This document shows, in pieces, positions 8,376 through 34,379 of a DNA stretch of 45,190 bases. This stretch comes from Actinomycetota bacterium (GTDB taxonomy: Bacteria; Actinomycetota; Thermoleophilia; RBG-16-64-13): contig JAHJSA010000066.1 in NCBI GenBank assembly GCA_018830645.1, forward strand, positions 1-45,190, read 5' to 3'. The position numbers and the translations under genes are program-made. How positions within the stretch are numbered: position 1 is the first letter of the stretch; each line of letters starts with the position of its first letter. Under the pieces are notes generated by a model. It worked only from the letters and a program-made list of their open reading frames with translations. It was not told the origin of the DNA and ran no database searches.

Positions 8376-9611
8376 ATGGCAAGGATTGATACGGATCTCC
8401 TGGGTCTTCAGATCGTCGCGCTGGACACGGCCACCGTCGTGGGCGAAGTGGACGGCCTTCTGATCGACGACGCGACGGTCAAGGTGGCCGGCTTTCTCGT
8501 GGATCTGGGCCTGTATGAGGCGTCGGTATTGCCGTACGCTTCGGCCCATTCGGTAGGACTCGACGCGGTCATCGTGGAAAGCGGCTCCAAGATCGCCGCC
8601 ATCTCCGCCAACCCCGCGCTCGCAGCGCTCGCGGAGAAGGACATCACCATCACCGACGCCAAGGCGATCACGCGTGAGGGTCGCACGGTCGGCACCATCG
8701 GCGACTACTTCATCGACACGAAGACCGGCGAAGTGGTCGGCATGGAGTTCATCGCCGCCGACCAGACGGTATACCCCCGTGAGACGGCCGTGATCCCGGC
8801 TTCCAGTGTCTACCGCCTGGGGCGCGACATCATAGTCCTCGAGGCCGACTACGACCAACACCTGCAGAAGGACGACAGCTCGCTCGAGCGGGTGGCCAGG
8901 ACGCAGACGGTCGAGCCGGCGAAGACAGAAGCCCCGGCCGTGATTCCGGTCGCAGTGGCCGAACTCGAGCCCGTACAGCCCATCGCGGTCGTCGAGCCCG
9001 AGCCGGAGCCCCCGGTCGCGCTCGAACCCGCTCCCGTCGAAGAGCCCGCGCACGAACCGGCTCAGGAGTTGGAGGAAGCCTTCGAGGCCATCACGACTCC
9101 CGAAGAAGCGACGGCCGTCGAAGCACCGGCCGTCGCCGAAGCCGTGGCACCGGTGGTCGAGCCCGCGGTCGAAGTCGAAGAAGTCGTGGAGGTCATCGAG
9201 GAACCGCCGGTCGAATTGGTGGCAGAGCTCAAGGAAGTCGAGCCGGAGGTCGAGGTAGCCGAGGAGATCGCACCGCTTGCGGCCGTGACCCCCGCCTATG
9301 CCGACGACACGCTCACCTCGGAACCCGCCCTCGACCTATCGGAGCCCGAAGTTGCCGTCGAGGAGGCGCCGGTCGAAGAACCACCTGTGGTAGAGGCCCC
9401 AGCCGCGGGAGCTCCCACCGCGGAAGCCCCGGCCGAGGATGCGTTCACGTCGCAGCAGAAGCACTTCCTCATTGGGAAGCGCGTACTCCGCCGCATCGAG
9501 ACCCCCTCCGGCGAACTGATCGCCGACATGGGCGAACTTGTCACCTTCGAGATCATCCAGAAGGCGAAGGGTTCCGACCAGCTGCTCATCCTGTCACTGA
9601 ACGTCGAATAG
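8376..9611 (+). CDS. PRC-barrel protein with long acidic linker and C-terminal barrel-like domain
   Basis: The 411-residue product starts 4 nt after the previous stop behind a strong AAGGAGG. Residues 1-168 repeat the double PRC-barrel of the first gene in the operon (LGLQIVALDTATVVGEVDGL is close to the same place in that paralogue). Residues about 170-350 are a Glu/Pro/Val/Ala-rich segment with a strong negative charge. Residues about 358-411 form a small compact beta domain (FLIGKRVLRRIETPSGELIA, then DMGELVTFEIIQKA) that may be another barrel. No signal peptide is seen. The long acidic linker would allow the two folded ends to reach separate partners. Function is unknown. A terminator follows, so this is the last gene of the operon. 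Confidence 0.85.
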   Translation: MARIDTDLLGLQIVALDTATVVGEVDGLLIDDATVKVAGFLVDLGLYEASVLPYASAHSVGLDAVIVESGSKIAAISANPALAALAEKDITITDAKAITREGRTVGTIGDYFIDTKTGEVVGMEFIAADQTVYPRETAVIPASSVYRLGRDIIVLEADYDQHLQKDDSSLERVARTQTVEPAKTEAPAVIPVAVAELEPVQPIAVVEPEPEPPVALEPAPVEEPAHEPAQELEEAFEAITTPEEATAVEAPAVAEAVAPVVEPAVEVEEVVEVIEEPPVELVAELKEVEPEVEVAEEIAPLAAVTPAYADDTLTSEPALDLSEPEVAVEEAPVEEPPVVEAPAAGAPTAEAPAEDAFTSQQKHFLIGKRVLRRIETPSGELIADMGELVTFEIIQKAKGSDQLLILSLNVE

Positions 9612-9620
9612 CTATCGCGG

Positions 9621-9680
9621 GGCCCTTCGGGGCCGGCGCGTCGAACACCGTGAAAAGCCCGGCCTTCCAGCCGGGCTTTT
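9621..9680 (+). terminator. Terminator of the PRC-barrel operon, two hairpins
   Basis: A first small hairpin (GGCCC, TTCG tetraloop, GGGCC, 9621-9634) is followed by a perfect 11-bp stem AAAAGCCCGGC / GCCGGGCTTTT (9653-9663 and 9670-9680, loop of 6). The T-run at the end fits a factor-independent terminator for the plus strand. The A-run in front could also serve transcription from the right. Confidence 0.85.
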
Positions 9681-9822
9681 CCTTTGCTCACCGCATGTCC
9701 CGTCGGCAGCGGACCACACCTCAGAATCCATGCGTCTGAAATCGGTGGTTTTTCTCCTAGTAGAAAGTCTTGGTTGCATGCGAATTATTCTGCCCGTCTC
9801 TAAGACTCGCTGTAAATGGCAC

Positions 9823-9865: not shown

Positions 9866-9894
9866 TTGACAGGCCCCTAGGATGCCGATACGCT
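9866..9894 (+). promoter_or_regulatory. Promoter of the 47-heme cytochrome gene
   Basis: TTGACA (9866-9871) is a perfect -35 box. After 17 nt comes TACGCT (9889-9894), which matches the -10 consensus at the key first, second and last positions. Transcription would start near 9901, which leaves a leader of about 265 nt before the cytochrome start codon. Confidence 0.7.
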
Positions 9895-9976: not shown

Positions 9977-10010
9977 AACCGGCCGTGGGGATGGCCGGTT
10001 TCTTTCATTT
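9977..10010 (+). terminator. Terminator-like hairpin inside the leader
   Basis: An 8-bp perfect stem AACCGGCC / GGCCGGTT with loop GTGGGGAT is followed at once by TCTTTCATTT. This could stop transcription early (attenuation). The U-tract is broken by C and A, so efficiency is uncertain. Confidence 0.45.
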
Positions 10011-10113
10011 CCGGTTCATCTCAAGAACAGGAGACGACGTTACTTCAGACCGGAGCCTAGGCTCCGGTCGACTCGTCTCAGGGGCATTACTACCTGCCGT
10101 AGTAGTGCCGAAG

Positions 10114-10159
10114 TTCACAAACTCCTTTCCTCCATAGACCAATGTGGAAAGGAGGTGAA
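10114..10159 (+). promoter_or_regulatory. Hairpin that buries the ribosome-binding site of the 47-heme gene
   Basis: CTCCTTTCC (10122-10130) pairs perfectly with GGAAAGGAG (10146-10154), and TTCAC (10114-10118) extends the stem with GTGAA (10155-10159) across an AAA bulge. The paired right arm contains the whole SD sequence AAAGGAGGTGA (10148-10158), which lies 7 nt from the ATG at 10166. In this fold the site is closed to ribosomes, so translation should need an opening event. Confidence 0.7.
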
Positions 10160-10165: not shown

Positions 10166-13100
10166 ATGAAGATGAAGAAACTCGTAGTACTCACCATCTT
10201 GATCGCCGCCGTGCTTCTCGCCACGGCCTCGCCGGCTTTGGCACTCACAAACTTCGACTGCCTCGAGTGCCACAAGGCCCCCGGCGGGACGGCAACGGGC
10301 AAGCTGGTGAGCTTCACAGCTTCGCCGGTGGACACAACTACCAAGTGCGCTCCGTGCCACTCGGAGGCGTGGCTAGCGGACCATGACATAGCGCCCACTA
10401 CCACGACGGACGTCGCCAAGATCCACCGGTCACACAACGGGATCCGGTCGGACGGCACTAACATGACGATCTACGCCGGCACAGGTCAAATCTGTGAGGG
10501 ATGCCACTCGGGAGTCGTCGATTGCGAATGGTGCCACGGCAGCATGGTCACGCACCAACTTCCCTATCACGGCAACGGCTCGCTCCCGGGCACAATCGTG
10601 CCGGGCGTACCCACCCAGGTCGTCAGCGGAGGACTCGGCACAACGGCCGTGACCAAGTCGCTCACCTGCCTCGCAAGTCGGTGCCATGCGCTCCAACCGC
10701 CGGTGTCGCCTTCGCTGCAGCCCAGCATCCGCCTCGTGCCCTCCTGCGGCCAAGCCGGATGTCACGCAAGTGAGTCGCACGAGCTGGCGCACGAGCCGGA
10801 CGCGGCCCTCACGGCCACGTACGCCTCGTGCGGAGCCGCCGACTGCCACGACCTCAACCTGGTCACAGAGCACCTGACGAACCAACCGCTTGGTTGCGGC
10901 ACATGTCACGACTCGGTCGATCCGGCCGTTGTCGGGGCGATCGCCGCCGGCTCAGCGCCGGGTGGCGTCAAGCAAGGCTGCTACGTATGTCACGGTACCG
11001 ATGCCGGTATGCATACTCCGGCTCACGCCCTGACGAACCCGGTGCAGCCGCCGCTCACCTGCCAGTCGGCCTCGTGTCACGTGGCCAACCTGGTCACCGA
11101 ACACGTCGATCGTCGCGCGCTCACATGCAATACCTGCCACGCCGGCTCCGCCGCCGTTCAGGGTGTGATCACGACTTACGGCACGGGTGGCCTGAAGGCC
11201 GCCATGAACCCGACGTGTGAAGACTGCCACGGCCCGGTGTCCGGCCATGCCGACGACCATGCGTTGACGGCTCCGGTGGCACCTCCGGCCGAGTGTCAGT
11301 ACTGTCACGCCACCAACCTGTTGCCCGTGCACATCGATCCGGACTTCCCGGCCGACGTGAACGGCAGCACCTGGGGCGTGTACGACTGCGACACGTGTCA
11401 CGCGCCGAGCAGCAGGGTGGCGTCGCAAGTCTCGACGTTCGCGGCGAACACCGCCGCCAACCCGACCTGCGCGACCTGCCACACGGTCACGAGCATCCAC
11501 GTCGATCGTCACCTGACGACCTCGACGGCATGCTTCGACAGCGGTTGTCACGTGAGCACCAACTTGGCCACGCTCCACGCGGGGTACGGCCGAGGCTGTG
11601 ACACCTGTCATACTGCTTCTCCGCGCGCCGGTGTACGCGAGGCCATCCTCGCGAACAACACCTCGTGCGAAGCCTGCCACATGTCAGGGCACTTCGATCA
11701 GCACGCGTTGCCCGCCGGTAAGACCATCGGCTCCGGCTACTACAAGTACTCGAACCAATCGTCTGGCACCACCGACTGCGCCATCTGTCACACGAACAAC
11801 GTGATCTTGGAGCACACCGGTGACGCCACGACGGGTCGCCCGGCTTGGCTCGCGGCGAACGGCTCACCGCTCAACTGCGACACGTGCCACAAGAGCACGC
11901 GCGCGGAAGTGGTGGCCGCCATCGCGGCGGCGAAGACCGGTCAGCTGACGAACTGCGACCAATGTCACACGGTCCACGGTACGCCCACGTTGGAGCACCA
12001 GTCGCCGACTTCGGCGCCTGACCAGAGCTGCGGTCAGAGTGGGTGCCACAACGCGAACCTGCTGGTGGAGCACGAGATCCGCTGGTCGCAACCGGCCACG
12101 GACGTGCAGAACGACACGACACCTACGAACGGTGTGTGCGCACGCTGCCACCTCGGCAACACGGGCGCCCTGTCGAAGACCTTGGTGTTGACGGCCATCG
12201 ACAACGGCGACCGCACGTGCCAGGCGTGCCACGGCGCGAACGCGGGCGCGGGTCATACCGCGACTCACGATCCCGACGCGGCACTCTCGAACACGTACGC
12301 CTCGTGCAACGCACCGAGCTGTCACGTCCTGAACATCTCCACGGAGCACGTGGGACGCACGTTCAAGACGGGCACGGTCGGTTCGTGCAACACGTGTCAC
12401 GCAACGACAGCTCCGGCGGTCGCCAAGAACGCCATCGTGGCGTGGAAGGCAACGGGTGTCAAGCAGGGCTGCTTCGTGTGCCACGGCGCCAGCGCCGGTC
12501 AGCACCTGAACCAGCACACGCTCACCAATCCGGTGCAGCCGCCTGTTGAATGCCAGTCCTCCTCGTGTCACGTGGCCAACCTGGTCACCGAACACGTCGA
12601 TCGTCGCGCGCTCAACTGTGCCACCTGCCACAGCGGTTCCTCCGCCGTCCAGCAGGTCATCGCGACCTACCGCACCGGCGGTACCAAGGCCGCTATGAAC
12701 CCGACGTGCACCGAGTGCCACGGGCCGACGGCCGGCCAGCACGTGCAGCAGCACGAGCTCGCCGCATCCGACTGCTCGCTGTGCCACTCCAACAACCTGG
12801 TGACCGAGCACACCGTCAACAACCCACTCGGGTGTGACGCGTGCCACGGCGCTGGGGCGTCGGCCACAGTGAAGTCGGTGATCGCCACGTACGGTGGTGC
12901 GAATCCGGCGCTGCCGCTGTGCACAAGCTGTCACACCGCGTATCACGCGGGCGCGACCGCCAAGCACACGGCCAACGAGGGCACCGACTGCCAGAGCTGC
13001 CACCTGATGATGCTCCCGACGGAACACGCTCGGAGCACCAGCATCAGCAACTCGCGCAGCTGTGGCAACTGCCATCCGCTGCCCCAGTCGTTCGTGTGGA

Positions 13101-14464
13101 CGTACAAGTGCGCGGACTGCCACAAGACCGGCGGTCTGGCTCCGGTGCGCCATCTGGCTGAGACCACGAAACACGTGTCGTCTCAGACCGATTGCGCGAA
13201 GTCCGGATGCCACGCCACCGATCTGCGGACGGTCCACTCGCCCGTTGGCTGCAACGTCTGCCACAGCACGACCAAGTATCCGACCACGTCGGACTGCAAG
13301 GTCTGCCACGGCAGCGGTCCGCACGCCATGCGCGAGCCGTACAAGGCTAGTTGTGCCTCGACCGGGTGCCACAGCATCGGTGGCCCGGGCAAGAGCCTGC
13401 ACGACAAGCACGTGATCGACAAGCGTGTGGCCTGCATCTCCTGCCACAGCGGTGTCAACGCGACGCCGCCGCAGCCGCCCGCCTGTGCCACGGCCACGTG
13501 CCACGAGCACAGCGTGGAACAGGTCCACAGCAAGAGCCAGCACCAGGCCAAGCCGTGCACGTTCTGCCACAAGTCGGGCGTGCCGGGTCACGGACCCACG
13601 CCGTTCAAGTACGGGTTCACGCCGTCGCAGTTCCGGACGCCGTGTCTGTCGTCGGGCTGCCACGACTACAAGTCGCACATGGGCAGCGGCGACTGCATGA
13701 AGTGCCACGGCCCCGCCTCGAACAAGAAGACGGACGTGCACCTCGCCAACAGCAAGCACGTGGCCGATCGCAACGCCTGCGGCAAGTGTCACGACCTCAG
13801 CAAGAACACGATGACCAGCTGTGGGACGTGCCACAAGTTCTACTTGGGCTGGTACGCCGCGTGGACCTCCACGACCACGACGTCCACCTCGTCGACGACC
13901 ACGACTTCGTCTACCACGACGACTACGGGGCCGACGACGACCACGACGACAACGTCGAGCACCACCACGTCGACCACCACCACCACGTCGACCACCAGCA
14001 CCACGGTGCCGCCGGCGACGACCGAGTACAAGGTGACCAAGGCCGAGTACCTGGAAAACCTCAACAACAGCGACTCAGACAGCCGAGCCGATAAGCGGTA
14101 CGACGTCACCAGCAAGATGAGTGACAGTAGCTACGGCGACTCGTACGAGATCAACCGCAACCGCAAGATGATGTCGCTGCGGCTCGATCAGAGCGGCAGC
14201 ACCGTCAAGACGGCCGTGTTGAGGCTCTACGTGAACTCGCTCAGAGACGGGAAGACGCAGACCATCCGCGTCTACCGTTACAACAGCGACGGCAACTCGT
14301 TGGAGTCGAGCTACTCCCAGTACACGGTGTCCAAGACCGGTTGGATCGACCTCGATGTCACCACCCTGGTCAAGGCCACCAGCGGCACGTGGTTCAAGCT
14401 GCGCGTCACGTGCGCCAGCGACGACTACAAGATCTCTGAAGCACGCTACGTGTTGACGAGGTAG
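10166..14464 (+). CDS. Giant secreted cytochrome with 47 heme motifs and DNRLRE-like C-terminal domain
   Basis: The start is set at ATG 10166, 7 nt after AAAGGAGGTGA. An in-frame ATG at 10142 lies inside the hairpin loop and is not used here. The product has 1,432 residues. Residues 1-27 form a signal peptide (ends SPALA). Between residues 31 and about 1,224 a hand count gives 35 CxxCH and 12 CxxxxCH motifs, with many extra His residues (patterns LVTEHV, HALTNPV) suited to be second heme ligands. Residues about 1,234-1,286 are an almost pure Thr/Ser stalk. Residues about 1,287-1,432 are a beta-rich domain of DNRLRE type (TAVLRLYVNS, GWIDLDVTTLV), a fold found on surface proteins. The likely role is long-range electron conduction across or beyond the wall, with the end domain attaching to the surface or a polymer. 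A module of about 160 residues is duplicated inside. Confidence 0.93.
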   Translation: MKMKKLVVLTILIAAVLLATASPALALTNFDCLECHKAPGGTATGKLVSFTASPVDTTTKCAPCHSEAWLADHDIAPTTTTDVAKIHRSHNGIRSDGTNMTIYAGTGQICEGCHSGVVDCEWCHGSMVTHQLPYHGNGSLPGTIVPGVPTQVVSGGLGTTAVTKSLTCLASRCHALQPPVSPSLQPSIRLVPSCGQAGCHASESHELAHEPDAALTATYASCGAADCHDLNLVTEHLTNQPLGCGTCHDSVDPAVVGAIAAGSAPGGVKQGCYVCHGTDAGMHTPAHALTNPVQPPLTCQSASCHVANLVTEHVDRRALTCNTCHAGSAAVQGVITTYGTGGLKAAMNPTCEDCHGPVSGHADDHALTAPVAPPAECQYCHATNLLPVHIDPDFPADVNGSTWGVYDCDTCHAPSSRVASQVSTFAANTAANPTCATCHTVTSIHVDRHLTTSTACFDSGCHVSTNLATLHAGYGRGCDTCHTASPRAGVREAILANNTSCEACHMSGHFDQHALPAGKTIGSGYYKYSNQSSGTTDCAICHTNNVILEHTGDATTGRPAWLAANGSPLNCDTCHKSTRAEVVAAIAAAKTGQLTNCDQCHTVHGTPTLEHQSPTSAPDQSCGQSGCHNANLLVEHEIRWSQPATDVQNDTTPTNGVCARCHLGNTGALSKTLVLTAIDNGDRTCQACHGANAGAGHTATHDPDAALSNTYASCNAPSCHVLNISTEHVGRTFKTGTVGSCNTCHATTAPAVAKNAIVAWKATGVKQGCFVCHGASAGQHLNQHTLTNPVQPPVECQSSSCHVANLVTEHVDRRALNCATCHSGSSAVQQVIATYRTGGTKAAMNPTCTECHGPTAGQHVQQHELAASDCSLCHSNNLVTEHTVNNPLGCDACHGAGASATVKSVIATYGGANPALPLCTSCHTAYHAGATAKHTANEGTDCQSCHLMMLPTEHARSTSISNSRSCGNCHPLPQSFVWTYKCADCHKTGGLAPVRHLAETTKHVSSQTDCAKSGCHATDLRTVHSPVGCNVCHSTTKYPTTSDCKVCHGSGPHAMREPYKASCASTGCHSIGGPGKSLHDKHVIDKRVACISCHSGVNATPPQPPACATATCHEHSVEQVHSKSQHQAKPCTFCHKSGVPGHGPTPFKYGFTPSQFRTPCLSSGCHDYKSHMGSGDCMKCHGPASNKKTDVHLANSKHVADRNACGKCHDLSKNTMTSCGTCHKFYLGWYAAWTSTTTTSTSSTTTTSSTTTTTGPTTTTTTTSSTTTSTTTTTSTTSTTVPPATTEYKVTKAEYLENLNNSDSDSRADKRYDVTSKMSDSSYGDSYEINRNRKMMSLRLDQSGSTVKTAVLRLYVNSLRDGKTQTIRVYRYNSDGNSLESSYSQYTVSKTGWIDLDVTTLVKATSGTWFKLRVTCASDDYKISEARYVLTR
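11070..11123 (+). repeat. 54-nt exact internal repeat, copy 1
   Basis: This stretch within the 47-heme gene is identical to 12561-12614. It encodes the SCHVANLVTEHVDRRAL segment. It lies in a larger protein-level duplication (about 10790-11250 against 12262-12760). Identity at DNA level over 54 nt points to recent duplication or gene conversion. Confidence 0.9.
12561..12614 (+). repeat. 54-nt exact internal repeat, copy 2
   Basis: Second identical copy of 11070-11123, in the same frame and orientation, in the 47-heme gene. Confidence 0.9.
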
Positions 14465-14590: not shown

Positions 14591-15607
14591 CTAATAGGAG
14601 TAGACCACCAGCCGGCGCGCGCCGCCGTCGGAGATCACGATGCGGTCGTTGGTGATGGCGATGCCCTCGGGGAGAGTCAACCGCCTGGAATCGCCGGGGC
14701 CGCGCCCGTACGTGTAGAGGAGGCCGCCGTCGGACCCGTACACCTGTACGGCCTGCCCGAAGGTGTCCACCACGTGCAGGCGGCCGAATCTGTCGAACGC
14801 CAAGCCACGAGGCAGAACGAGTCCCTCTTCGGTGTCCGCCTTGTCGATCACGGTGACCACGCCGCTCTCGGCGCCGATCACCTGCACCCGTTTGTTGTTG
14901 CTGTCGGCTACGTACACCAGCCCGTCACGGTCCACCGCCAACGCGTTCGGGAAGGAGAACTCACCGGGATGGAACCCCTCGCCCCCGAAGTACCGCAGGT
15001 ATGAGCCCGAGGTGGAGAACGCCTTCACTCGCTGGTCTCCCACGTCGGTGAGCAGCACCTCGGTCGGGGTGACCGCGAGGCCCACCGGGGAGAGGAGTTC
15101 GGAGCGGGTGCGCTCGTCTTCCGAGATGAAATCACCGAGGAACGAACCGTCCGGGGTGAGTCGCCATACGCGTCCATTGGCGGCGTCGGCAACGAGGAGC
15201 GTGCCGTCGGCCAGCACTCCCACGGCTGTGGGTTGCGGATCGCGAGGCAGCTCTTGATCGAGACTGTCGGGCGTGATGGGGATGAAACCGATCTGGGCTT
15301 CCTGGCCTTCGGCGAGATCGAGTACCGCGACACGCTGGCCCTCGCTATCCGCGACGTACACGCGGCTCCCGGCTACGGCGGAATTGCGCGGACGGAAGGG
15401 GCGGTCGGCCGGCACCTGCACCGGGTAGAGGAACGAAGGCTCTCCGGCGTTCTCGCCGGGCCCCAGTGTGGTCATGGTGGACCCGACTTCCGGAGGCGCG
15501 CCGTCGACCCGCAGGTAGATCGCGAGCAGACTCACGAGGGCCACCGAGAGAACCACGATCAGAGCGATGTACAGGCGTCGAGGAGCCGCCGAGACCGATG
15601 AGCTCAT
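14591..15607 (-). CDS. Membrane-anchored NHL-repeat beta-propeller protein
   Basis: The start is taken at ATG 15607, which places a membrane helix at residues about 14-35. The longer frame from 15691 would add 28 unlikely residues. The product has 338 residues. After the anchor and a linker come about six NHL-type blades, each with the pattern G-x-hydrophobic-Y/V-V-A-D-S/A (VYVADSEGQRVAVLDL, LLVADAANGRVWRL, VYVADSNNKRVQVI, LHVVDTFGQAVQVY). NHL propellers act as docking platforms. A second protein of this type lies at 23273-24307, beside a heptaheme cytochrome. In Geobacter, NHL-repeat genes are known beside cytochrome-filament genes, so a helper role in cytochrome export or assembly is plausible but is an inference. 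Confidence 0.85.
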   Translation of the reverse strand: MSSSVSAAPRRLYIALIVVLSVALVSLLAIYLRVDGAPPEVGSTMTTLGPGENAGEPSFLYPVQVPADRPFRPRNSAVAGSRVYVADSEGQRVAVLDLAEGQEAQIGFIPITPDSLDQELPRDPQPTAVGVLADGTLLVADAANGRVWRLTPDGSFLGDFISEDERTRSELLSPVGLAVTPTEVLLTDVGDQRVKAFSTSGSYLRYFGGEGFHPGEFSFPNALAVDRDGLVYVADSNNKRVQVIGAESGVVTVIDKADTEEGLVLPRGLAFDRFGRLHVVDTFGQAVQVYGSDGGLLYTYGRGPGDSRRLTLPEGIAITNDRIVISDGGARRLVVYSY

Positions 15608-15681
15608 TCGCCCCCGCAACACGATCCGCCGGTGATGGGCAGAGGCGTGCTCCGCTCCTCGCTCGGCGACTCCACTTGGCG

Positions 15682-15709
15682 GTTGAAGCACTCCTCACGC
15701 ACGATATAC
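15682..15709 (+). promoter_or_regulatory. Promoter for the paired 12-heme cytochromes
   Basis: TTGAAG (15682-15687) and TATACT (15704-15709) are separated by 16 nt. It lies in the divergent gap and would start transcription about 120 nt before the first cytochrome start. Confidence 0.45.
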
Positions 15710-15835
15710 TGTTCCTTCGACCGAGCGACACGGCTTTTCGCAGCCACACGACGCCTTCGACAGGTCAAAGACGCCTTCGGCAGGCTACCACCAAGGGAGC
15801 AGGTGTTCAAACCCGCAGAAACCGCGAAACGGGCC

Positions 15836-16807
15836 ATGGCGCTGCTCGGCCGCCTTCCGCTCAAGGCTCTCCTCATCGTGGTGGTCTTCCTGTTCGCCGT
15901 CGCGGAGGTGGGCTTCGTTGTTCAGGCCACTACTCAGCGGGGCTGCTCGTGGTGCCACGTGCCGGAGCGCGTCCTCGCGGAGAACTCCGAGAGCAGCCAC
16001 GCGCAGGTGCGCTGCCTCGACTGCCATAGGACCCAGGGCTCGCTCAACCTGCTGGAGCTGAACGTCCGGGCCGTCCGCAACCTGGTCGTGCACATGAGCC
16101 CGTTTTCAGACATCGATGCCTCCCGAGCGTTCGTCCCCTCCTCCACCTGCTTCTCGTGTCACGAGAGCCAGATCGTCGGGCGATTGGCCGTGGCCAACAA
16201 CATCCGTATGCGCCATTCCGACGTACTCGACGCACGCATCCCGTGCGCCTCGTGTCACACGCGGGCACTCCACGGCGATAGTCCGGTCACAGGGGGGCTC
16301 ACTCACGCCAGCTGCTCCTTCTGCCACGACGGCACGACCGCCGGCACGGCGTGCAGTGTGTGTCACATGACAGAGCCCACGGGCGGAGTCGCCCAGCTCC
16401 CCGGCATCGAGGCGATAGTGCACGGATCGGAAGTGGGCACCATCCACGGCATGGGTGATCTCAGCGCCTGCACCATCTGCCACGCCCGCACCTTCTGCAA
16501 GAGCTGCCACGGGGTCGAGCTCCCTCACGACCCGAACGCATTCCCGCACCTCCACGGCGCCCAGGCGATCGAAGCCCGCGGAGCCTGCACCGACTGCCAC
16601 AAGCAGAGCTTCTGTGACTCGTGCCACCAGATCGAGATGCCCCATCCCGAGGGCTTCCTCCCCGAACACGAGGAGCGGATGCGCGAGCTGGACCGGGCCA
16701 CGTGCGACCGCTGCCACGTGCCCGAAGATTGCCAGTACTGCCACACCGCCCACATCCATCCGGGGCTTCCTCCCGAAGCCCTCGAAGAACTGCGCGGCCC
16801 CGGATGA
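15836..16807 (+). CDS. Membrane-anchored 12-heme cytochrome
   Basis: The start chosen is ATG 15836. A GTG at 15803 with AAGGGAG in front is a possible alternative that adds 11 residues. The product has 323 residues. Residues about 9-29 form an uncleaved N-terminal helix, and the rest lies outside with 12 CxxCH motifs. The first pair (CSWCH and CLDCH about 25 residues later, after ESSHAQVR) resembles the NapC/NirT opening, where quinol is oxidised, though the family match is weak. Later motifs include the CxxCHxxxMPHP pattern seen in the lipoprotein cytochromes of this window. The next gene, another 12-heme membrane cytochrome, starts 13 nt later, so both are likely co-expressed and form one electron-transfer unit. 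Confidence 0.88.
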   Translation: MALLGRLPLKALLIVVVFLFAVAEVGFVVQATTQRGCSWCHVPERVLAENSESSHAQVRCLDCHRTQGSLNLLELNVRAVRNLVVHMSPFSDIDASRAFVPSSTCFSCHESQIVGRLAVANNIRMRHSDVLDARIPCASCHTRALHGDSPVTGGLTHASCSFCHDGTTAGTACSVCHMTEPTGGVAQLPGIEAIVHGSEVGTIHGMGDLSACTICHARTFCKSCHGVELPHDPNAFPHLHGAQAIEARGACTDCHKQSFCDSCHQIEMPHPEGFLPEHEERMRELDRATCDRCHVPEDCQYCHTAHIHPGLPPEALEELRGPG

Positions 16808-16820
16808 GCGAGGCGCCGGC

Positions 16821-17894
16821 ATGATGTCGTTCCTGCGGACCCTACTCACCGATCTGCGCCAGGTATGGGCCGACCCTCAAGCCGACCCGCAGAGAACCGT
16901 GGTGTTCATCGCCGCGGCGGCCATCGCACTGCTTCTCGTGTTCGTGGTGCTCCTCCTGATCGTCTCCTGGGGGCCGCGTGGTGAACGAGAGCAGAAGCGC
17001 CGGTGGCGGGAACGTTTCGTCACGCCCCTCTTGGTGCCGGGGATCCTGCTCGTGTTCCTGGGTCTCTCTCTGGCCGGCGACGAGTTCGCCACCGCCCCCA
17101 CCACCTGCAGCCGCTGTCACGAGATCGCGGCGAGCGTGACCTCCTGGAATCAATCGGACCACGCAGGGAACGACTGCCTGCGCTGCCACGGCGACCGGGG
17201 AGTCATGGGGTTCGTCGCCACCCGCGTGCGAGGACTCAGCAACCTGACGACGCACTACCTGGGGGGCACGCCTCGGCTCGACGCCGGCGTCAGCGATTCG
17301 CGCTGCCTACTCTGCCACGGTGACATCACTACAGGGACGGCCCAATTCGGTTCGCTCCAGGTGCGCCATGAGGACTTCCTCGGTGCTGGGATCAGCTGTC
17401 TCGGGTGCCACGGGAAACCGGGGCACCTGGTCACGAAGGGGTTCGTCGAGCGGCCGAGCATGGACAAGTGCCTCGCGTGCCACAACAATCAGGATGCGGC
17501 CGCCACATGCGAGACCTGCCACCTCACCGACATCGCAGAGGTCCTCGAGATCCCCGACTCCTACCCCAAGGCCCACCTGGCAGAGAAGGGCACGTGTGAG
17601 GGCTGCCACAGCCTGGAGCCGTGCAGGGAATGCCATGGTCTCGACATGCCCCACCCACCGACGTTCTCCACGGTCGAGCATGCTCCGCTGGCCGCATTCG
17701 GAGGCAAGGACGACCTCTGCTACCGCTGCCACGAGCCCGAGGAGTGCCGCGACTGCCACATGGCCTTCGACGCGCACGGGCCTGACTGGGAGACCCGCCA
17801 TGGACTCCTCCAAGGTACGCCGGCGGCCAACTGCTCGAGTTGTCACGACGACATCCCCACCACCCCCATCTGCGAGTTCTGCCACCAGCCATGA
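16821..17894 (+). CDS. Two-helix membrane cytochrome with 12 hemes
   Basis: The start is ATG 16821, 13 nt after the previous stop. Longer frames upstream overlap the coding region of the first cytochrome. The product has 357 residues. It has two membrane helices (about 27-49 and 68-88) with a charged loop of about 18 residues between them, so the heme domain should be outside if the N-terminus is also outside. Twelve CxxCH motifs follow from residue about 95. The first, CSRCH, then CLRCH after SWNQSDHAGND, again recalls NapC-type quinol-oxidising cytochromes. CHGLDMPHPPTF is one more case of the MPHP pattern. The stop overlaps the next start (ATGA). Confidence 0.88.
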   Translation: MMSFLRTLLTDLRQVWADPQADPQRTVVFIAAAAIALLLVFVVLLLIVSWGPRGEREQKRRWRERFVTPLLVPGILLVFLGLSLAGDEFATAPTTCSRCHEIAASVTSWNQSDHAGNDCLRCHGDRGVMGFVATRVRGLSNLTTHYLGGTPRLDAGVSDSRCLLCHGDITTGTAQFGSLQVRHEDFLGAGISCLGCHGKPGHLVTKGFVERPSMDKCLACHNNQDAAATCETCHLTDIAEVLEIPDSYPKAHLAEKGTCEGCHSLEPCRECHGLDMPHPPTFSTVEHAPLAAFGGKDDLCYRCHEPEECRDCHMAFDAHGPDWETRHGLLQGTPAANCSSCHDDIPTTPICEFCHQP

Positions 17895-20014
17895 GCGATC
17901 CCGCGGAGGTGTCCCTCACGGAGGAACCACCGCACCGGGCGCCTGGCCGGGCGCCACCGGGCCAGGAACCGCCCGTCCAGGCGCCCTCCGCGAGGGCGGC
18001 CCCCTCTCTGGCGGTGTGGGCCGCGGCGGCGGCCCTGCTCGCGCTGCCGCTGATCTACCTGCCCGACGCACATCACGTGTACGCCCTGCCCAAGGCGACG
18101 GTCTTCCGAGTCGCCGTGGTGCTCATGCTCCTCGCGGGCTTCATGCGTCTACTTGGAAGGGATGCAGGGCGGCCCGTCCTCCGCGTACCCGAGCTGCTGC
18201 TCCTCGGATTCCTCGGCTGGGTGGCCTTGGCCGCATCCGTCTCAGGATGGGCGCCGGTCGCGCTCCTCGGCACCTCTCCGCGATACGAAGGAGCTCTCGG
18301 GTTCGTGGGGTATGCGGCCTTCTTCTGGACGGCCTCCCGGGCCTCACTCGCACAGGCCAAGCTCCTCGTGCGGGCGATCGCACTGAGCGGCGCGCTTCTG
18401 GGCCTCGCCGCGCTCCTAGAGATGCTCGGACCGTTCCGCCCGCCCGGGTTTGGGGCCTTCGGGCTCCGAGCCACGTCACCGATGGGAAACCCGGTGTTCC
18501 TGGGAGCCTGGATCGCCATGGCGATCCCCGCCACACTCGCAGGCATGTGCCTCACGCGCCACCGCTCGGAACTCGTGCTGGCCATCGTCGCACTCGGCCT
18601 GCAGTCCGGCGGCCTCTATCTCAGCGCGGGGCGGGGGGCGTGGCTCGGTGCGGTCGCGGGCCTGACGGTCGCGGGCGCGCTTCTGCTTCTCGTGCGACTG
18701 GCCGCCGGGAGACCCGGGAGGCCCGGAAGGTCCGGAAGGTCCGGGGGAGCGGGGACGCGCGGAGCCATCTTGCCTCGCCGGTTGCTCCTCGGAGGCGCGG
18801 CCGCCGCGGTCATCCTGGTGGCGGCGTTGGCACTCACCACCGCCCTCTCGCCCGGCGTGGCCGAGAGCGGCACCCGCTTGACCGAGGCCTTCGACACCGT
18901 GGCGCAGGGTCAAGGCGGAGGCTCGGCCGAGACGCGACTGATCATGTGGCGGGCGACGCTCGACCTCGTCGCCGAGCACCCGCTGCTCGGTGCGGGCCCG
19001 GAAACGTTCCTCGGGGAGTTCCCCCGGGTGCGCCCCCTCCGGCTCGTCCAAGTGGAGGACGCGGCCGCCTACCCCGATCGCCCCCACAATCACTGGCTCT
19101 ATCTGGCGTACGCGACAGGGCTCCCCGGGTTGGCTCTGTACGTGGGGTTCCTGCTCGCAATCGCCTTCCTGGCGCTCCGCTCCCTCCTCCGGAGCCCACA
19201 CCCCTCGTGGCAGCGAACGGCTGCGACGTGCTCCCTTCTCGGAGGCGCGGTCGCCTACGAGGTGCAGGCGCTGTTCAGCTTCAGCCTCGTCTGGACCACC
19301 CCCGCCGCCATGACCCTTGCGGGCCTTGTGCTCGCCCTGATGAGACATGGGGAGTTCACGGCGACCCTCCGCGCGCCCACCTGGGCCGCACGGGTCGCGG
19401 GCGTCGCCTTCCTCGCCCTCGCCCTCGCCCTGCTTTCGCCGGCGGTACGGGACCCCTGGGCCGACCGGGAGTTCAGGCGCGGCTTGAGCGAACCCGCGGC
19501 GGCGGTGGAGGCGACCTCCCGGGCAGTGAGTCTTTCGCCTCGCGACGCCGAGTACGTGATCGGGTACGGCCGCGCCTTGGAGCAGGAAGCCCGCGAGCGA
19601 GCCGACTCCTCCCTCCTCTCGCGGGCTATCCTCACCTACGAAGACGCCGAGCAACGCATCCCCCACCACCCCGACATGCTCTTCTCACTGGCCCGCGTGC
19701 AGGCCCAGCGCGGCCGGCTCCAGGCGGCGGGGCGCACCTACGAACGGGTACTCTCCCGCGACCGCTTCCACACGGGGGCCCTCTTCAACCTGGCGGCCAT
19801 CCGCCTCGAGTTGGGCGATCCCGCCGGCGCGGAGCCCCTGGCCGCGCGCATCCTGTCCTACGACGAGGCAGACGCCGGGGCCTGGTACCTGCTGGGCCGG
19901 ACCCACCAAGCGCAGGGGAGGCTCTCAGAGGCCCGCAAAGCGTACGAACAGGCCCTCACCCTCGACCCGGCTCTTCGCGATGCAGAGAGCGCCCTGGAAA
20001 GCCTGGGAGGCTGA
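17891..20014 (+). CDS. O-antigen-ligase-like membrane protein with TPR tail
   Basis: The start at ATG 17891 overlaps the TGA of the 12-heme gene. A longer frame starts within that gene and is rejected. The product has 707 residues. After a Pro-rich cytosolic lead of about 35 residues come roughly ten membrane helices (about 37-490). A Wzy_C-like loop holds the motif RATLDLVAEHPLLGAGPETF with the later HNHWLYLAYATG, typical of the O-antigen ligase/polymerase superfamily. Residues about 520-705 are TPR repeats (FSLARVQAQRGRLQAAGRTY). Such proteins join or polymerise glycans on lipid carriers, or attach glycans to surface proteins. A Thr-linked protein glycosylation role is possible given the Thr-rich cytochromes, but is an inference. 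The pair partner is at 20015-22036. Confidence 0.85.
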   Translation: MSDPAEVSLTEEPPHRAPGRAPPGQEPPVQAPSARAAPSLAVWAAAAALLALPLIYLPDAHHVYALPKATVFRVAVVLMLLAGFMRLLGRDAGRPVLRVPELLLLGFLGWVALAASVSGWAPVALLGTSPRYEGALGFVGYAAFFWTASRASLAQAKLLVRAIALSGALLGLAALLEMLGPFRPPGFGAFGLRATSPMGNPVFLGAWIAMAIPATLAGMCLTRHRSELVLAIVALGLQSGGLYLSAGRGAWLGAVAGLTVAGALLLLVRLAAGRPGRPGRSGRSGGAGTRGAILPRRLLLGGAAAAVILVAALALTTALSPGVAESGTRLTEAFDTVAQGQGGGSAETRLIMWRATLDLVAEHPLLGAGPETFLGEFPRVRPLRLVQVEDAAAYPDRPHNHWLYLAYATGLPGLALYVGFLLAIAFLALRSLLRSPHPSWQRTAATCSLLGGAVAYEVQALFSFSLVWTTPAAMTLAGLVLALMRHGEFTATLRAPTWAARVAGVAFLALALALLSPAVRDPWADREFRRGLSEPAAAVEATSRAVSLSPRDAEYVIGYGRALEQEARERADSSLLSRAILTYEDAEQRIPHHPDMLFSLARVQAQRGRLQAAGRTYERVLSRDRFHTGALFNLAAIRLELGDPAGAEPLAARILSYDEADAGAWYLLGRTHQAQGRLSEARKAYEQALTLDPALRDAESALESLGG

Positions 20015-22036
20015 TCAGGGCAGCCGGTCGAGCTCCTGCCGGGCCGGCGTGAACCGTGGATCCACGAGTAGGGCCCGCTCGAACGTAGCGCGGGCGCGCT
20101 CGACGTCGCCGGAATCCCTGAAGTAGAGGCCCACGGTGTGGAGCACCCGCGCGCTCCGCACATCCACAGCGAGGGCACGTTCCGCCTCGGCCAGCGCCCG
20201 CTCGGTCTCGCCCAACCGAAGAAGGGCGTATGCCAGCTGCGCGTGCGGCAGCGGCTCCACCGGCGAGTACGATGTGGCAAGCTGCGCGCTCTCTCGCGCC
20301 TTCTTCCACTCGCCGCGCTGCAGGTGCGCCGCCGTGAGGGCCGCGAGCAGATCCATGTCACGAGGCGAGAGGCTGAGCCCCCGCCGAAGATGCGTCTCCC
20401 CGTCCGCTACCAGGAGGGGCCGCCCCTGGGCTATCCCCTCCCGCGTCTCCGCGAGCGCGAGTGAACGCCAGTAGGACTCCACGAGGGGAAAGCCTTCGGC
20501 CGCCTCGGTGAGTTCGCCCATGTCGCCCCTGATCTCGCCCACCAGGTAGTGGCGATCGGCCTGGTACCAGGCCCAGGAGCCCACGGCCAACGTGAGCACA
20601 ACGGCGCCGGTGATCACCGGCGGCGCGACTCTAGCGGCGCGACCCGAGCGGCGCGTGCCCTCGACACCCTCGACACCCTTCGCCCCACGGCCACCGGCAG
20701 CACCTGCGAGGGCGAGCCCCACCACCACGAGCGCAACCGGCGTCACAACAAGATTCTGGGGCATGGTGAGCGACCCCGCCAAGAAGGCCGCGAGCACACC
20801 GGCGGCCGCTGCACCATCTTCTTCGAATCTCCTACGGAATAGCGCAAGGCCCATGGTCACGAACCAGCCCAACAGGACGACTGCGGCTGGGATTCCCCAC
20901 GTCGCGGCGATCTCCAGGAAGAGCGAATGGGCGTCGGCATCGCGCGTGAGTGGCTCCAACTCCAGTTTCTCAGCTGTCATGTGCTGCTGCGCCCCGAAAC
21001 GATAGTTGTTGGGGCCCCAGCCCAGCAGCGGACGATCGAGAGCGGCCTCCGCGGCGATGCCCCACATTAGGAGACGGGTCTCGACACTGGAGCCCGCCTC
21101 GATCGCGGCTTCCTGTCCTTGTGCGCCGACGCCGACGCCTCGGGCGGGGGCGAGCGCGGGAACCACGAGCAGGCCCACGATGAGACTCCAGCCCGCCAAG
21201 GCGACGAACAGCGAAGCGACGCGCGCACGCGACCCCGACTCCGAGTCGAGTAGTGCGCTCCCCGCCCACACAACGGCCCCCATCGCCAAGGCCAGCCAGG
21301 CGCCCCGCGACCACGACACACCGAGACCGAGGACGATCAGCGCCGCCGCCCCTGCAGCCAGTGCGGTTCCAACGCCGGAATGGGCTCTACGCGCAAGATC
21401 CAGCGACAGGATGGCGGCCAGCGCGAGGAACGCACCCGAATACAAGGGATTGCCGAGAGTGGAACCCGCTCGTCCGTCCACCCGAAAACCGAGGCGGAAG
21501 CGCAGGGGTTCCCAATGCGCGGCCTGCAGGACCGCGAGCGCAGCCACCACGACCCCTGACGCCACCAATCCGATCAGAAGCGCACGCCTCAGGCGCCCAT
21601 CGAGTCGCGACCGACGAAGAGCGAAGAACCCACCCACCGCCGCCGCCCAGAACAGCCAGCCGGTGCCCTGGTTGTAGGTGCCAAGAACGGCCGTAGCCAC
21701 GCTGGAGGCCGTAGCCACGCTCGCAAGTCCGAGGGCAAGAAACGCGGCCGCAAGGGCCTCCGATGCACGCCGCCGCAACCCAACGCCACCCGGCTCGGGC
21801 CGATCACCCGGGTTCAGCCTCTCAACCTCGACCTTCGCTCTCGGAAGCACGGCACCCAGCACGAGCAGCCCACAACCCGCGTACACCGGCAGGAGCTTAG
21901 CGGTGAAGAACGTCGCGGCGGCGGATGAGGAGAAGGCGAGGGGGGCCACCACGACCAGGAGAGACCAACCGACCACCGCAATGATATCCGCCGGGGTCCA
22001 CGCCACACCCCGACGCGCGATCGACTCTTCAGACAC
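20015..22036 (-). CDS. Second O-antigen-ligase-like protein with TPR tail
   Basis: The 673-residue product uses a GTG start at 22036 with a G-rich site just upstream. About ten to twelve membrane helices occupy residues 15-470. The ligase-type loop is present (TRLLMWGIAAEAALDRPLLG, WGPNNY, and later DAHSLFLEIAATWGIPA). Residues about 500-670 hold TPR repeats that end the protein (ARATFERALLVDPRFTPARQ). It is a distant paralogue of the gene at 17891, and the two stop codons abut exactly in TGATCA. It stands alone on its strand between the heptaheme gene and that paralogue. Its likely action is the transfer or polymerisation of lipid-linked glycan at the outer face of the membrane. The substrate is unknown. 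Confidence 0.83.
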   Translation of the reverse strand: MSEESIARRGVAWTPADIIAVVGWSLLVVVAPLAFSSSAAATFFTAKLLPVYAGCGLLVLGAVLPRAKVEVERLNPGDRPEPGGVGLRRRASEALAAAFLALGLASVATASSVATAVLGTYNQGTGWLFWAAAVGGFFALRRSRLDGRLRRALLIGLVASGVVVAALAVLQAAHWEPLRFRLGFRVDGRAGSTLGNPLYSGAFLALAAILSLDLARRAHSGVGTALAAGAAALIVLGLGVSWSRGAWLALAMGAVVWAGSALLDSESGSRARVASLFVALAGWSLIVGLLVVPALAPARGVGVGAQGQEAAIEAGSSVETRLLMWGIAAEAALDRPLLGWGPNNYRFGAQQHMTAEKLELEPLTRDADAHSLFLEIAATWGIPAAVVLLGWFVTMGLALFRRRFEEDGAAAAGVLAAFLAGSLTMPQNLVVTPVALVVVGLALAGAAGGRGAKGVEGVEGTRRSGRAARVAPPVITGAVVLTLAVGSWAWYQADRHYLVGEIRGDMGELTEAAEGFPLVESYWRSLALAETREGIAQGRPLLVADGETHLRRGLSLSPRDMDLLAALTAAHLQRGEWKKARESAQLATSYSPVEPLPHAQLAYALLRLGETERALAEAERALAVDVRSARVLHTVGLYFRDSGDVERARATFERALLVDPRFTPARQELDRLP

Positions 22037-28638: not shown

Positions 28639-29748
28639 GCCCAGCACCCGGCCGGTCATGGCTTCCAGGGAGAACTCCTTCGCCTGACGCTCGCGCGCCT
28701 GTGCACCCAACCGCGCACGAAGCTCCTCGTCCTCGAGTAACAGCCCAAGGGCGGCCGCCAGCGAGACCGCGTCCCCGGGCGGGACCACGAGGCCCGTCTC
28801 GCCGTGGCTGTTGGCGAACGGCACGCCGGTAGGGAGATCGGTACTCACGACCGGCACGCCGCAGGCGTGGGCCTCCAGCTGCACCAGACCGAATGCCTCG
28901 TTCGGGGTGACAGACGGCAACACAAACACGTCGGCCGCGTGGTAGTGCGCGACGAGATCGCGGAAGCTCAAGGACCCGGCGAACACCACTCGCTCACCGA
29001 TGCCCATGACCGCCGCACGTTCCTCGAGGCGGCCGCGCAGAGGGCCCTCGCCCACCACCGCCAGAGTGCCGGGAACGTGCCGGAACGCTTCGAGCAACAC
29101 GTCGACGCCCTTGTACGGCACGAGGCGGCCGACAAAGAGCGTCAATGGCGTTCCGTATCGCTCACGCAGCTCGATCGACCGCTCCGCCAGTCCTTCGTCG
29201 GCCTGCAGCGGCGCCGGGTCGATTCCGAACGGGATCACCCGCACTTTGTGAGCCACTCGGCGTAGAAAGGAGGAGCTCTGGGCAAGTTGTGGTGAGGAGA
29301 CGATGACTCCGTCGGCGCGATCCAGGAACCGCTTGGTCAAGACTGAGTACGGCACAGAAAGTACGCGTTTCGTCACCGACTGGGCGACAAAGTCGCTATG
29401 ATAGGCACATACTATCCGGGGAAGCGACGGCCTTCGCACGGAAGCGAGAAGCACCGCCAATTCGCCCGTGGGGAACGGGTAGTGCAGGTGCCATACGTCA
29501 TGAGACGAGGCCTTCAACACGTCAAGGAGAGCGGTGGACAACGGGTTCGAGGCGACTATCCCTAGCTGCGGCAGGCGATTCACAACCACACCCCTGTCGA
29601 CTTCGCGCCCGGGATCCCCTTCCGCGACCACTGCGACCTCGACCTCTACGCCCGGAACAGCCGCCTGGGCCCGAGCCAGGTCCTGAAGATGGCTCTCTAT
29701 ACCGCCTACATGCGGCGGATACCGTTTGTTGATGTGGAGTATCCGCAT
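28615..29748 (-). CDS. GT4 family glycosyltransferase with C-terminus in a tandem repeat
   Basis: The start is ATG 29748, with GGAAGG 9 nt upstream. The ATG three codons earlier (29757) directly abuts that site. The product has 377 residues of GT-B form. The acceptor domain has PPHVGGIESHLQDLARA. The donor domain has GRLVPYKGVDVLLEAF and PSVTPNEAFGLVQLEAHACG. It belongs with the phosphatidyl-inositol mannosyltransferase-like GT4 enzymes and would add a sugar to a lipid-linked acceptor. The chain ends YYEELLL inside the 16-nt tandem repeat. With one repeat copy it would end in a further Lys-Pro before a stop, so the effect on the enzyme is small. It is 120 nt upstream of the DUF4388 gene. Confidence 0.92.
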   Translation of the reverse strand: MRILHINKRYPPHVGGIESHLQDLARAQAAVPGVEVEVAVVAEGDPGREVDRGVVVNRLPQLGIVASNPLSTALLDVLKASSHDVWHLHYPFPTGELAVLLASVRRPSLPRIVCAYHSDFVAQSVTKRVLSVPYSVLTKRFLDRADGVIVSSPQLAQSSSFLRRVAHKVRVIPFGIDPAPLQADEGLAERSIELRERYGTPLTLFVGRLVPYKGVDVLLEAFRHVPGTLAVVGEGPLRGRLEERAAVMGIGERVVFAGSLSFRDLVAHYHAADVFVLPSVTPNEAFGLVQLEAHACGVPVVSTDLPTGVPFANSHGETGLVVPPGDAVSLAAALGLLLEDEELRARLGAQARERQAKEFSLEAMTGRVLGYYEELLL

Positions 29749-29751
29749 CGT

Positions 29752-29780
29752 TTGCATCCTTCCAAGAGACCAACTATATT
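29752..29780 (+). promoter_or_regulatory. Promoter of the diguanylate cyclase gene
   Basis: TTGCAT (29752-29757), 17 nt, then TATATT (29775-29780). The start point near 29787 excludes the upstream in-frame ATG at 29726 as the true start. Confidence 0.6.
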
Positions 29781-29821
29781 GTATCTGTGCAGAAGTTGTT
29801 CCCAGCGTGAAGAGAGACGGC

Positions 29822-30838
29822 GTGCACGATAAGCCAAACTCCAGTCAAGAAGAAGCCGTGAGCGCCCCAAACCCGCTCTTCCGCAAGGCGGAGAACGTCC
29901 TCGAAGCCAACAAGATCCGCATCACCAAGGACTGGCTCGGCCGGATCATCTCACGCATGGACGACCTCGACTCCCTGGAGAGCTTCCCGACCCAAGAGAG
30001 CATACGCGCATCGGTGGAGCTGGTGGAAGGCCTCGCGGCCGCTCTCCGCGACGAAACGGTGCTCGATAGCTTCCAGCCCGGCGGCCACTACTACGAGCGG
30101 GCGGCTCAGTTGGGCTTCTTCGGAGATGGTGACACGCCGGGGCTCGTGACGCTCTCTGGGAACATGTTGGCCTTGGAGGACTCCATCTGGATGCTCCTGC
30201 TGGAGACGCTGCGCAAGGAGGACAAGGAGCTCCTCACCCTCGTGATGAGACTGCGCGTGGCCCTTCACGGCATCTTCACCGCTTCCACCGAGTCGTACTT
30301 CCGACACTCCACAAGCGAACTCGACCGTCTCGCCCACACCGATCCGCTCACCGGCCTCTACAACCGCCGCTTCATGACGCGCGAACTCGAGCGTCATTGC
30401 GAGATGTACAAGCGCTACCGACACCCGTTCTCCATCCTCATGCTCGATCTCGACAACCTGAAGGCCGTCAACGACACCCACGGCCACCAGGCGGGCGACG
30501 CCGCACTGAAGCACCTCGCCATGCTGCTGAAGGTGAACGTGCGCGACGTGGACATCGCGTGCCGTCTGGGTGGAGACGAGTTCATCGTGCTGATGCCCGA
30601 GACCGAGCAGAGCGTGGTGCAGGTGGTGGGCGACCGCATCAGCACCTCACTCGCGAAGACCAAGCTGAAGGTCGACGCCGCGCTCGTGAGTCTCGAGGTG
30701 AGTGTGGGCGACGCCAGCTGCCCTACCCACGGCACCGAGAGCGACCAGCTGCTCGAAGAGGCCGACGCGAGCCTCTACCGGTCCAAGCAGGGCCGCGCGA
30801 CGAATCGCGAAGCGGCGAACGGTCCCGCTTCGCGCTAG
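29822..30838 (+). CDS. GGDEF diguanylate cyclase with helical sensor-like N-terminus
   Basis: The start is uncertain. The GTG at 29822 is chosen for its purine-rich AAGAGAGA site. GTG codons at 29807 and 29860 are alternatives. The product has about 338 residues. The first 165 residues are helical, with an opening (ANKIRITKDWLGRIISRM) that recalls RsbR-type N-terminal domains. From about residue 170 comes the GGDEF domain (HTDPLTGLYNRRFMTREL, DLDNLKAVNDTHGHQAGDAA). The active motif GGDEF is intact, and the inhibitory site RxxD (RDVD) sits five residues before it, so product feedback is expected. It makes cyclic di-GMP from two GTP in the cytosol. It is divergent from the glycosyltransferase gene, which fits control of surface polysaccharide. 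Confidence 0.93.
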   Translation: MHDKPNSSQEEAVSAPNPLFRKAENVLEANKIRITKDWLGRIISRMDDLDSLESFPTQESIRASVELVEGLAAALRDETVLDSFQPGGHYYERAAQLGFFGDGDTPGLVTLSGNMLALEDSIWMLLLETLRKEDKELLTLVMRLRVALHGIFTASTESYFRHSTSELDRLAHTDPLTGLYNRRFMTRELERHCEMYKRYRHPFSILMLDLDNLKAVNDTHGHQAGDAALKHLAMLLKVNVRDVDIACRLGGDEFIVLMPETEQSVVQVVGDRISTSLAKTKLKVDAALVSLEVSVGDASCPTHGTESDQLLEEADASLYRSKQGRATNREAANGPASR

Positions 30839-34131: not shown

Positions 34132-34300
34132 ACGCCCACCTCGTTCACAAGAAGACGCCCAGCGAGGGGCACTGTCGAAGGACCATATCGGCTCGAGAGC
34201 CCTTCCCCTTGATGCCTGCGAGCGCATGTGAAGACCTGCGCAACGCGCCACGCACCAGAATAACGTACGAGGGGCGCTCCCGCTAGACGCGCACGAAAAC

Positions 34301-34336
34301 GGAGGCGGCCGAGTCCCGAGGGACTCGGCCGCCTCC
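34301..34336 (-). terminator. Terminator of the ten-gene cytochrome operon
   Basis: A perfect 16-bp stem (34301-34316 and 34321-34336) with a 4-nt loop. On the minus strand it is followed by GTTTTCG. It lies 43 nt past the end of the last lipoprotein cytochrome and is the strongest hairpin in the window. Confidence 0.88.
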
Positions 34337-34379
34337 ACACGGCTCCACAACCTACCGCGTCAACGTTCCGAAGCTAGGA

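Follow-up and report, generated by a model that had tools for sequence, protein, structure and literature searches.

Could a single secreted polypeptide carry electrons through the wall of a bacterium that lacks an outer membrane, and could the RNA ahead of its gene decide when it is made? This question is raised by a gene for a giant multiheme cytochrome in a 45,190-nucleotide (nt) stretch of actinomycetote DNA (contig JAHJSA010000066.1 of assembly GCA_018830645.1), referred to here as the window. We consider it fairly probable that the gene encodes a secreted polymer of cytochrome c7-type domains that would serve a monoderm as an electron conduit for extracellular electron transfer and would be induced by cyclic di-GMP (c-di-GMP).

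A script count on the translated open reading frame (ORF) 10166-14464 gave 35 CxxCH and 12 CxxxxCH motifs, 47 in all, which are the figures that a first-pass annotation of this DNA had reached by hand for its 1,432 residues. The script detected no motifs with spacers of 1, 3 or 5-8 residues. The motifs hold 94 of the 95 Cys residues, and 48 His residues lie outside them, approximately one per heme. The motif count is far from chance: shuffled sequences of the same composition contained on average 0.37 and 0.39 motifs, with maxima of 4 and 3. The same annotation had claimed that the CxxxxCH motifs recur in a fixed context, and this was borne out by SCHVANLVTEHV, which occurred exactly twice (near residues 304 and 801) together with many variants. 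The mature protein was computed at approximately 147 kDa, assuming cleavage after residue 27 as placed by eye, to which a full complement of heme would add 29 kDa. The sequence contains neither a membrane anchor nor a sortase motif.

When the motifs and spare His residues were listed in order, residues 203-1051 resolved into 11 tandem units with the token order His-His-heme-His-heme-heme, compared with a mean of 1.4 and a maximum of 7 units in 20,000 shuffles. Read from the sequence, this order is that of triheme cytochrome c7, in which, as in PpcA, the ligands run His17, His20, heme I, His47, and hemes III and IV. The array units are 27-49% identical to the first unit in the unit alignment. 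Within the array, CxxxxCH was confined to the first heme position of the unit, which it held in 7 of the 11 units; CxxCH occupied this place in the other four, as well as at the aligned site in a more distant relative, G009. The exchange of the two motifs at one position indicates that CxxxxCH is tied to a place within the unit and that its spacing is interchangeable with that of CxxCH. Cytochrome_C7 (PF14522) was the best Pfam family for the giant cytochrome (E 1e-26, in nine stretches over the whole protein). A profile of the unit placed the dodecaheme GSU1996 structure 3ov0 among its top matches in the PDB (E 2e-6), with c7 entries weaker, but other multiheme proteins scored similarly and the match was carried mainly by the motifs. 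The nanowire_3heme model TIGR04257 gave 24.5 bits against a curated cut-off of 40, and we rejected identity with the DmsE decaheme and MtrC/MtrF families, whose matches also lay below their cut-offs.

An ortholog was found in a congener (metagenome-assembled genome LH_M24 of the same genus, G001; JAGXFW010000023.1), with 79-81% identity over residues 1-1051. Over residues 30-1051, identity extended to 113 of 114 motif Cys/Cys/His residues (99%) and to all 38 other His residues (100%), compared with 664 of the 855 remaining positions (78%). Each array unit has three non-motif His residues, every one of them conserved in the congener, and all hemes of the giant cytochrome are probably bis-His ligated. 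The congener protein contains 43 CysHis motif ends (30 CxxCH, 10 CxxxxCH, 2 CxxxCH and 1 with a spacer of 7). Loss of the CxxxxCH sites in close relatives had been named beforehand as evidence that would count against the first-pass interpretation; in the collinear part, 10 of 10 were retained, and the two missing from the congener, at residues 1107 and 1160, both lie in the divergent C-terminal part. A search of 119 sampled genomes of the class at E 1e-15 yielded, apart from the congener, only G009, which has 20 CxxCH and 3 CxxxxCH motifs and a heme-free N-terminal region. Its gene adjoins NHL, NapC-type and Ig-plus-15-heme genes, a neighbourhood similar to that in the window. The predicted product is thus supported as a genuine, conserved multiheme cytochrome.

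The leader of the gene contains a class II c-di-GMP (c-di-GMP-II) riboswitch aptamer, RF01786 (Table 1), which was also present at the same place in the congener (61.3 bits) and in G007, a member of another genus of the family (61.4 bits). In G007, it directly follows a homolog of the upstream PRC-barrel gene and lies at a contig end, with the downstream gene outside the contig. At E <= 0.001, RF01786 matched once per genome in the window genome and in the congener. The strand AACCGGCC is both the last conserved stretch of the aptamer and the 5' arm of a terminator hairpin, which was called in a terminator scan whose count was not enriched region-wide and folds at -17.6 kcal/mol (z -2.4). The arrangement of AACCGGCC, a spacer of 7 or 8 nt, GGCCGGTT and a T-rich run was found in all three genomes, with a better T tract in G007. 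Because both structures use AACCGGCC, aptamer and terminator are mutually exclusive, and termination should be blocked once the ligand is bound. In Clostridioides difficile, class II c-di-GMP riboswitches switch transcription on (PMC11477304), and we predict that the leader acts as a c-di-GMP-responsive ON switch. It resembles the known class in its aptamer core and transcriptional expression platform; however, in C. difficile the class is known to control adhesins, pili and a signalling system (PMC11477304), whereas the gene here encodes a cytochrome. A narrow phrase search found no literature that names a c-di-GMP-II riboswitch together with a cytochrome.

Between the window and the congener, the aptamer was 94% identical, the terminator 97% and the Shine-Dalgarno hairpin 95%, compared with 69% for the upstream flank. 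The congener has TTGACA-17-TAGGCT at the place of the promoter-like site, which was too weak to be called in a consensus promoter scan of the window. A good Shine-Dalgarno sequence, AAAGGAGG, was located at 10148-10155, upstream of the ATG at 10166, and the hairpin over it (10122-10154) is a possible second control layer; 35 of 37 nt from 10122 to 10158 were identical in the congener. Two strong conserved hairpins also lie between the riboswitch and this hairpin (10030-10112). A match to rnk_pseudo at 9620-9688 was discarded, as it was below the gathering score and resembles the terminator of the upstream gene. The window genome encodes 16 GGDEF domains, one of them in the window, and the other genome of the genus encodes 17.

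Similar RNAs elsewhere in the class were found ahead of other genes. Matches of 28-35 bits to RF01786 in G002, G003 and G011 proved to belong to the c-di-GMP-II-GAG class, RF03169 (L018, L019 and L017, respectively; 51-61 bits), near tmRNA and sortase-like genes. The RF03169 switch of G011 precedes a Thr-stalked, probably sortase-anchored surface protein and no cytochrome, which suggests that class II switches control surface proteins in the family of the window. A general link between riboswitches and cytochromes in the class was rejected, since the proteins encoded after sub-threshold RF01786 matches in another family are secreted but unrelated. Two such below-threshold aptamers, L029 and L041 in G092, stand before genes for secreted proteins that have a single CxxCH each.

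At the C-terminus, the proposed stalk of about 53 Thr and Ser residues was recovered exactly (36 T, 11 S, 3 P, and 1 each of G, A and V). The domain beyond it had been described as a DNRLRE-like beta-sandwich. A single-sequence AlphaFold2 model was consistent with the fold, giving a jelly-roll-like all-beta sandwich (mean predicted local distance difference test score [pLDDT] 65.6; strands mostly 70-83), whereas membership in the DNRLRE family was not established: the isolated domain matched PF24517 (CBM96) at E 4e-4 and 20.6 bits, below the curated cut-off of 26, and a TGF-beta propeptide family matched about as weakly. The best solved fold neighbours of the model in VIA-align were the BMP9 prodomain (Z 9.8) and several carbohydrate-binding modules (CBMs; approximately Z 8), although scores of Z 7-8 often arise by chance with this tool. 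The likeness to CBM96 consists of a jelly-roll-like fold in the model and a sub-threshold profile match, and the nearest solved folds include both CBMs and TGF-beta family prodomains; "CBM-like jelly roll" is a fair description of the modelled domain, which has an isoelectric point of 9.1.

The further claim that this end forms a built-in anchor is weakened by the score below the PF24517 cut-off, the lack of relatives of the domain in the 17 other genomes of the family, and the absence of stalk and domain from the congener assembly. The congener gene terminates within a shortened Thr stalk (L011, 11400-11526), and its ORF ends in PTPTTTSTSSQR*. The DNA of G001 nevertheless retains, out of frame, a counterpart of the final 50 nt of the domain in the window, with 45 of 50 nt identical by eye and an alignment score of 80 against a shuffled maximum of 26. 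This remnant indicates that the common ancestor probably had the C-terminal domain. Either G001 has since lost stalk and domain by deletion or its assembly collapsed the Thr-coding repeat; whichever the cause, constraint on the C-terminal end is weaker than on the heme array.

The view that the organism has no outer membrane was supported by a search for Omp85, which was absent from both genomes of the genus and matched in 7 of 14 control genomes. An obligate Fe(III) reducer that has 17 multiheme cytochromes is known among the cultured Anaerosomatales of the actinobacterial class Coriobacteriia (PMC9686372), although placing the window in this order would be a guess; a text search for Coriobacteriia together with multiheme found nothing. 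In the mechanism that we favour, c-di-GMP at high levels would bind the leader RNA and keep the terminator from forming, and the giant cytochrome gene would be transcribed. Its tandem c7-type triheme domains, probably bis-His, would form one continuous heme chain. Electrons would pass from quinol-oxidising cytochromes of the membrane, for which the adjacent NapC/NirT-type gene is a candidate, through one giant cytochrome to the cell exterior. Stalk and jelly-roll domain would be an optional distal extension, probably holding a glycan or surface.

GSU1996 is reported to be 12 nm in length for 12 hemes (Pokkuluri 2011), and Gram-positive peptidoglycan walls are 20-80 nm thick (PMC7911101). At approximately 1 nm per heme, 47 hemes would extend about 47 nm, a figure within that range obtained by arithmetic proportion and not from a model; a single giant cytochrome might thus reach across a monoderm wall. 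The bolder proposal, that one polypeptide spans the whole Gram-positive wall as a 47-heme wire built through a c-di-GMP-II ON riboswitch, is tentative and, in our judgment, somewhat doubtful.

Several observations weigh against a c-di-GMP-induced conduit. The full-size gene was present in only two species among the 119 class genomes, and the presence of several other multiheme genes in the window makes the place of the giant protein in an electron-transfer chain a guess. An AlphaFold2 model of residues 203-506, built from a seven-row alignment, reached a pLDDT of 34 and was not used for linear geometry. The signal peptide was assigned by eye from the sequence, and the ligand of the aptamer, c-di-GMP, by RNA family only. 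Finally, the missing stalk and domain in the congener mean that this end is dispensable in some cases or that the assembly is wrong.

Of the other explanations, the one that fares best, although we think it rather unlikely, is a released extracellular cytochrome whose stalk and terminal domain bind oxide or matrix while the hemes pass electrons, as in PgcA of Geobacter sulfurreducens. PgcA is an extracellular Fe(III) oxide-binding cytochrome with repeats rich in Thr and Pro, and its gene is under a GEMM riboswitch (PMC5732950). The giant cytochrome shares with it the Thr-rich sequence and a dinucleotide riboswitch upstream, and its lack of a membrane anchor or sortase motif and the basic C-terminal domain would suit release and binding. 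However, PgcA is a lipoprotein of three hemes that lie between PTx repeats, and its riboswitch is of the GEMM-I type for cAMP-GMP. PTx repeats separating single hemes and lipid attachment were not found in the giant cytochrome, which has a single C-terminal stalk and no lipobox, and the absence of stalk and domain from the congener assembly also speaks against this reading.

Storage of electrons is a less probable alternative, in which the protein would act as a capacitor in or just outside the wall and charge when acceptors are short. Like GSU1996 and GSU0592, the Geobacter "nanowires of hemes," the giant cytochrome has tandem triheme c7-type domains in one chain; neither is known to us to have a stalk, a terminal domain or a c-di-GMP-II riboswitch. 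GSU1996, the nearest structural relative by profile, has been described as a periplasmic capacitor (PMC10138318), and 47 hemes would hold 47 electrons per chain. However, a monoderm has no periplasm bounded by an outer membrane, the stalk and jelly-roll end suggest a surface role, and a c-di-GMP riboswitch as the control element is more in keeping with a sessile life on surfaces than with starvation. GSU1996 differs from the giant cytochrome in having 12 hemes and in residing in the periplasm of a diderm. Each GSU1996 domain contains one His-Met heme (PMC10138318), whereas the giant cytochrome has a spare His for every heme; in its predicted ligands it is closer to PpcA than to GSU1996.

Assembly of many copies end to end into a filament, as for OmcS, OmcE or OmcZ, is improbable. 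The very long, probably bis-His heme chain and the NHL and multiheme genes nearby would fit, and extracellular cytochrome filaments are known from reviews. However, the known subunits are far smaller: that of OmcS has six hemes, and a tetraheme packing is reported for OmcE. The stalk and domain at one end would also have to be accommodated. That the gene is a chimeric or repeat-inflated assembly or a decaying pseudogene is very improbable and largely refuted. Repeats within the gene and its Thr-coding stretch do make assembly difficult, and the congener copy is cut short, with its remnant out of frame. However, one open frame runs the whole length of the gene, the strongest repeat found within it has only 66% identity, and the separately assembled congener has the same array with conserved ligands, leader and promoter.

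Heme number by itself is not new, as an 86-heme protein is known from anaerobic methanotrophic (ANME) archaea (PMC9012536) and the 27-heme GSU2210 from Geobacter (PMC10138318). The ANME multiheme cytochromes MHC-A, -B and -C and the 86-heme ANME-2c protein likewise join very many hemes to a non-heme surface- or sugar-related domain, and they have been proposed to cross a non-membrane envelope (PMC9012536). They are, however, archaeal and carry S-layer or pectin-lyase-like domains and C-terminal transmembrane helices, none of which were found in the giant cytochrome; no S-layer family occurred among its Pfam matches up to E 1. The secreted cytochromes CwcA and OcwA of Thermincola and OmhA of Carboxydothermus face the same wall-crossing problem in monoderms with 6-11 hemes each. 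In the Thermincola model, 4-16 small cytochromes are stacked through the wall (PMC7911101), several CwcA copies taking the place of the one chain proposed here. As far as we have checked, the combination of so large a c7-type chain in a monoderm, a stalked terminal domain and a class II riboswitch is new.

Table 1. Coordinates of the giant cytochrome gene, its leader and neighbouring genes in the window
Feature	Position	Strand	Details
PRC-barrel protein gene	8376..9611	+	PF05239; just upstream of riboswitch; same neighbour in congener and G007
Promoter-like site, TTGACA-17 nt-TACGCT	9866..9894	+	14 nt before aptamer; read from sequence
c-di-GMP-II riboswitch aptamer, RF01786	9909..9993	+	cmscan 55.2 bits (gathering 53.5), E 1.3e-9
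Intrinsic terminator, AACCGGCC-GTGGGGAT-GGCCGGTT-TCTTTCATTT	9977..10010	+	Uses aptamer 3' strand
Strong leader hairpin	10030..10080	+	-30 kcal/mol, z -4.8; conserved in congener
Second leader hairpin	10085..10107	+	-9 kcal/mol, z -3.2
Shine-Dalgarno-pairing hairpin	10122..10154	+	-15.8 kcal/mol, z -3.0
Giant cytochrome coding sequence	10166..14464	+	Intact ORF, 1,432 residues, 47 heme-binding motifs
Signal peptide	10166..10246	+	Residues 1-27, MKMKK... SPALA/LT; Sec-type, no lipobox Cys; read by eye
N-terminal heme region	10247..10771	+	Residues 28-202; 6 motifs, less regular
Array of 11 triheme c7-like units	10772..13318	+	Residues 203-1051; 33 motifs including 7 CxxxxCH
C-terminal heme region	13319..13861	+	Residues 1052-1232; 8 motifs, less regular; partly absent in congener
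Thr/Ser stalk	13865..14023	+	Residues 1234-1286; 53 residues
C-terminal jelly-roll domain, CBM96/DNRLRE-like	14024..14461	+	Residues 1287-1432; heme-free
NHL-repeat protein gene	14591..15691	-	PF01436; convergent neighbour; conserved in congener and near G009 relative
Two 12-motif multiheme cytochrome genes	15632..17894	+	12 CxxCH each; synteny
GGDEF protein gene	29726..30838	+	Domain 30332-30793, PF00990, 147.4 bits; candidate diguanylate cyclase

The first of the two 12-motif cytochrome genes (15632-16807) has a NapC/NirT N-terminal domain (PF03264, E 7e-11). A group of multiheme genes with 6-15 CxxCH motifs each was found together with two cytochrome b561-like membrane proteins on the minus strand at 32839-43622, one gene of which (42837-43622) additionally has two CxxxxCH motifs; this region looks like a second electron-transfer island. 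With its many further multiheme genes and the two b561-like proteins, the window as a whole is an electron-transfer island. The gene at 824-5881 (minus strand) encodes a 1,685-residue protein in which immunoglobulin (Ig)-like domains (Big_5, Big_3_3 and ZU5-like) are fused to approximately 12 CxxCH motifs; the congener conserves it at 70%, and G009 has a distant counterpart. Two convergent genes that abut tail to tail (17840-20014, plus strand; 20015-22036, minus strand) encode O-antigen-ligase-like (Wzy_C) proteins with TPR, although the organism lacks Omp85; glycosylation of surface proteins, for instance at the Thr stalk, might be their role.

The passage of electrons through monoderm walls tens of nm thick is an open problem. 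If confirmed, a single c7-polymer chain of suitable length would be a solution different from stacked cytochromes, and the giant cytochrome offers a concrete protein on which to test it. Its riboswitch belongs to another RNA class than the GEMM-I switches of Geobacter and would tie c-di-GMP, a signal of sessile life, to extracellular electron transfer in a Gram-positive-type lineage. If the bolder proposal of a wall-spanning wire is correct, the conductivity of the wall would be tied directly to the switch to surface-attached life.

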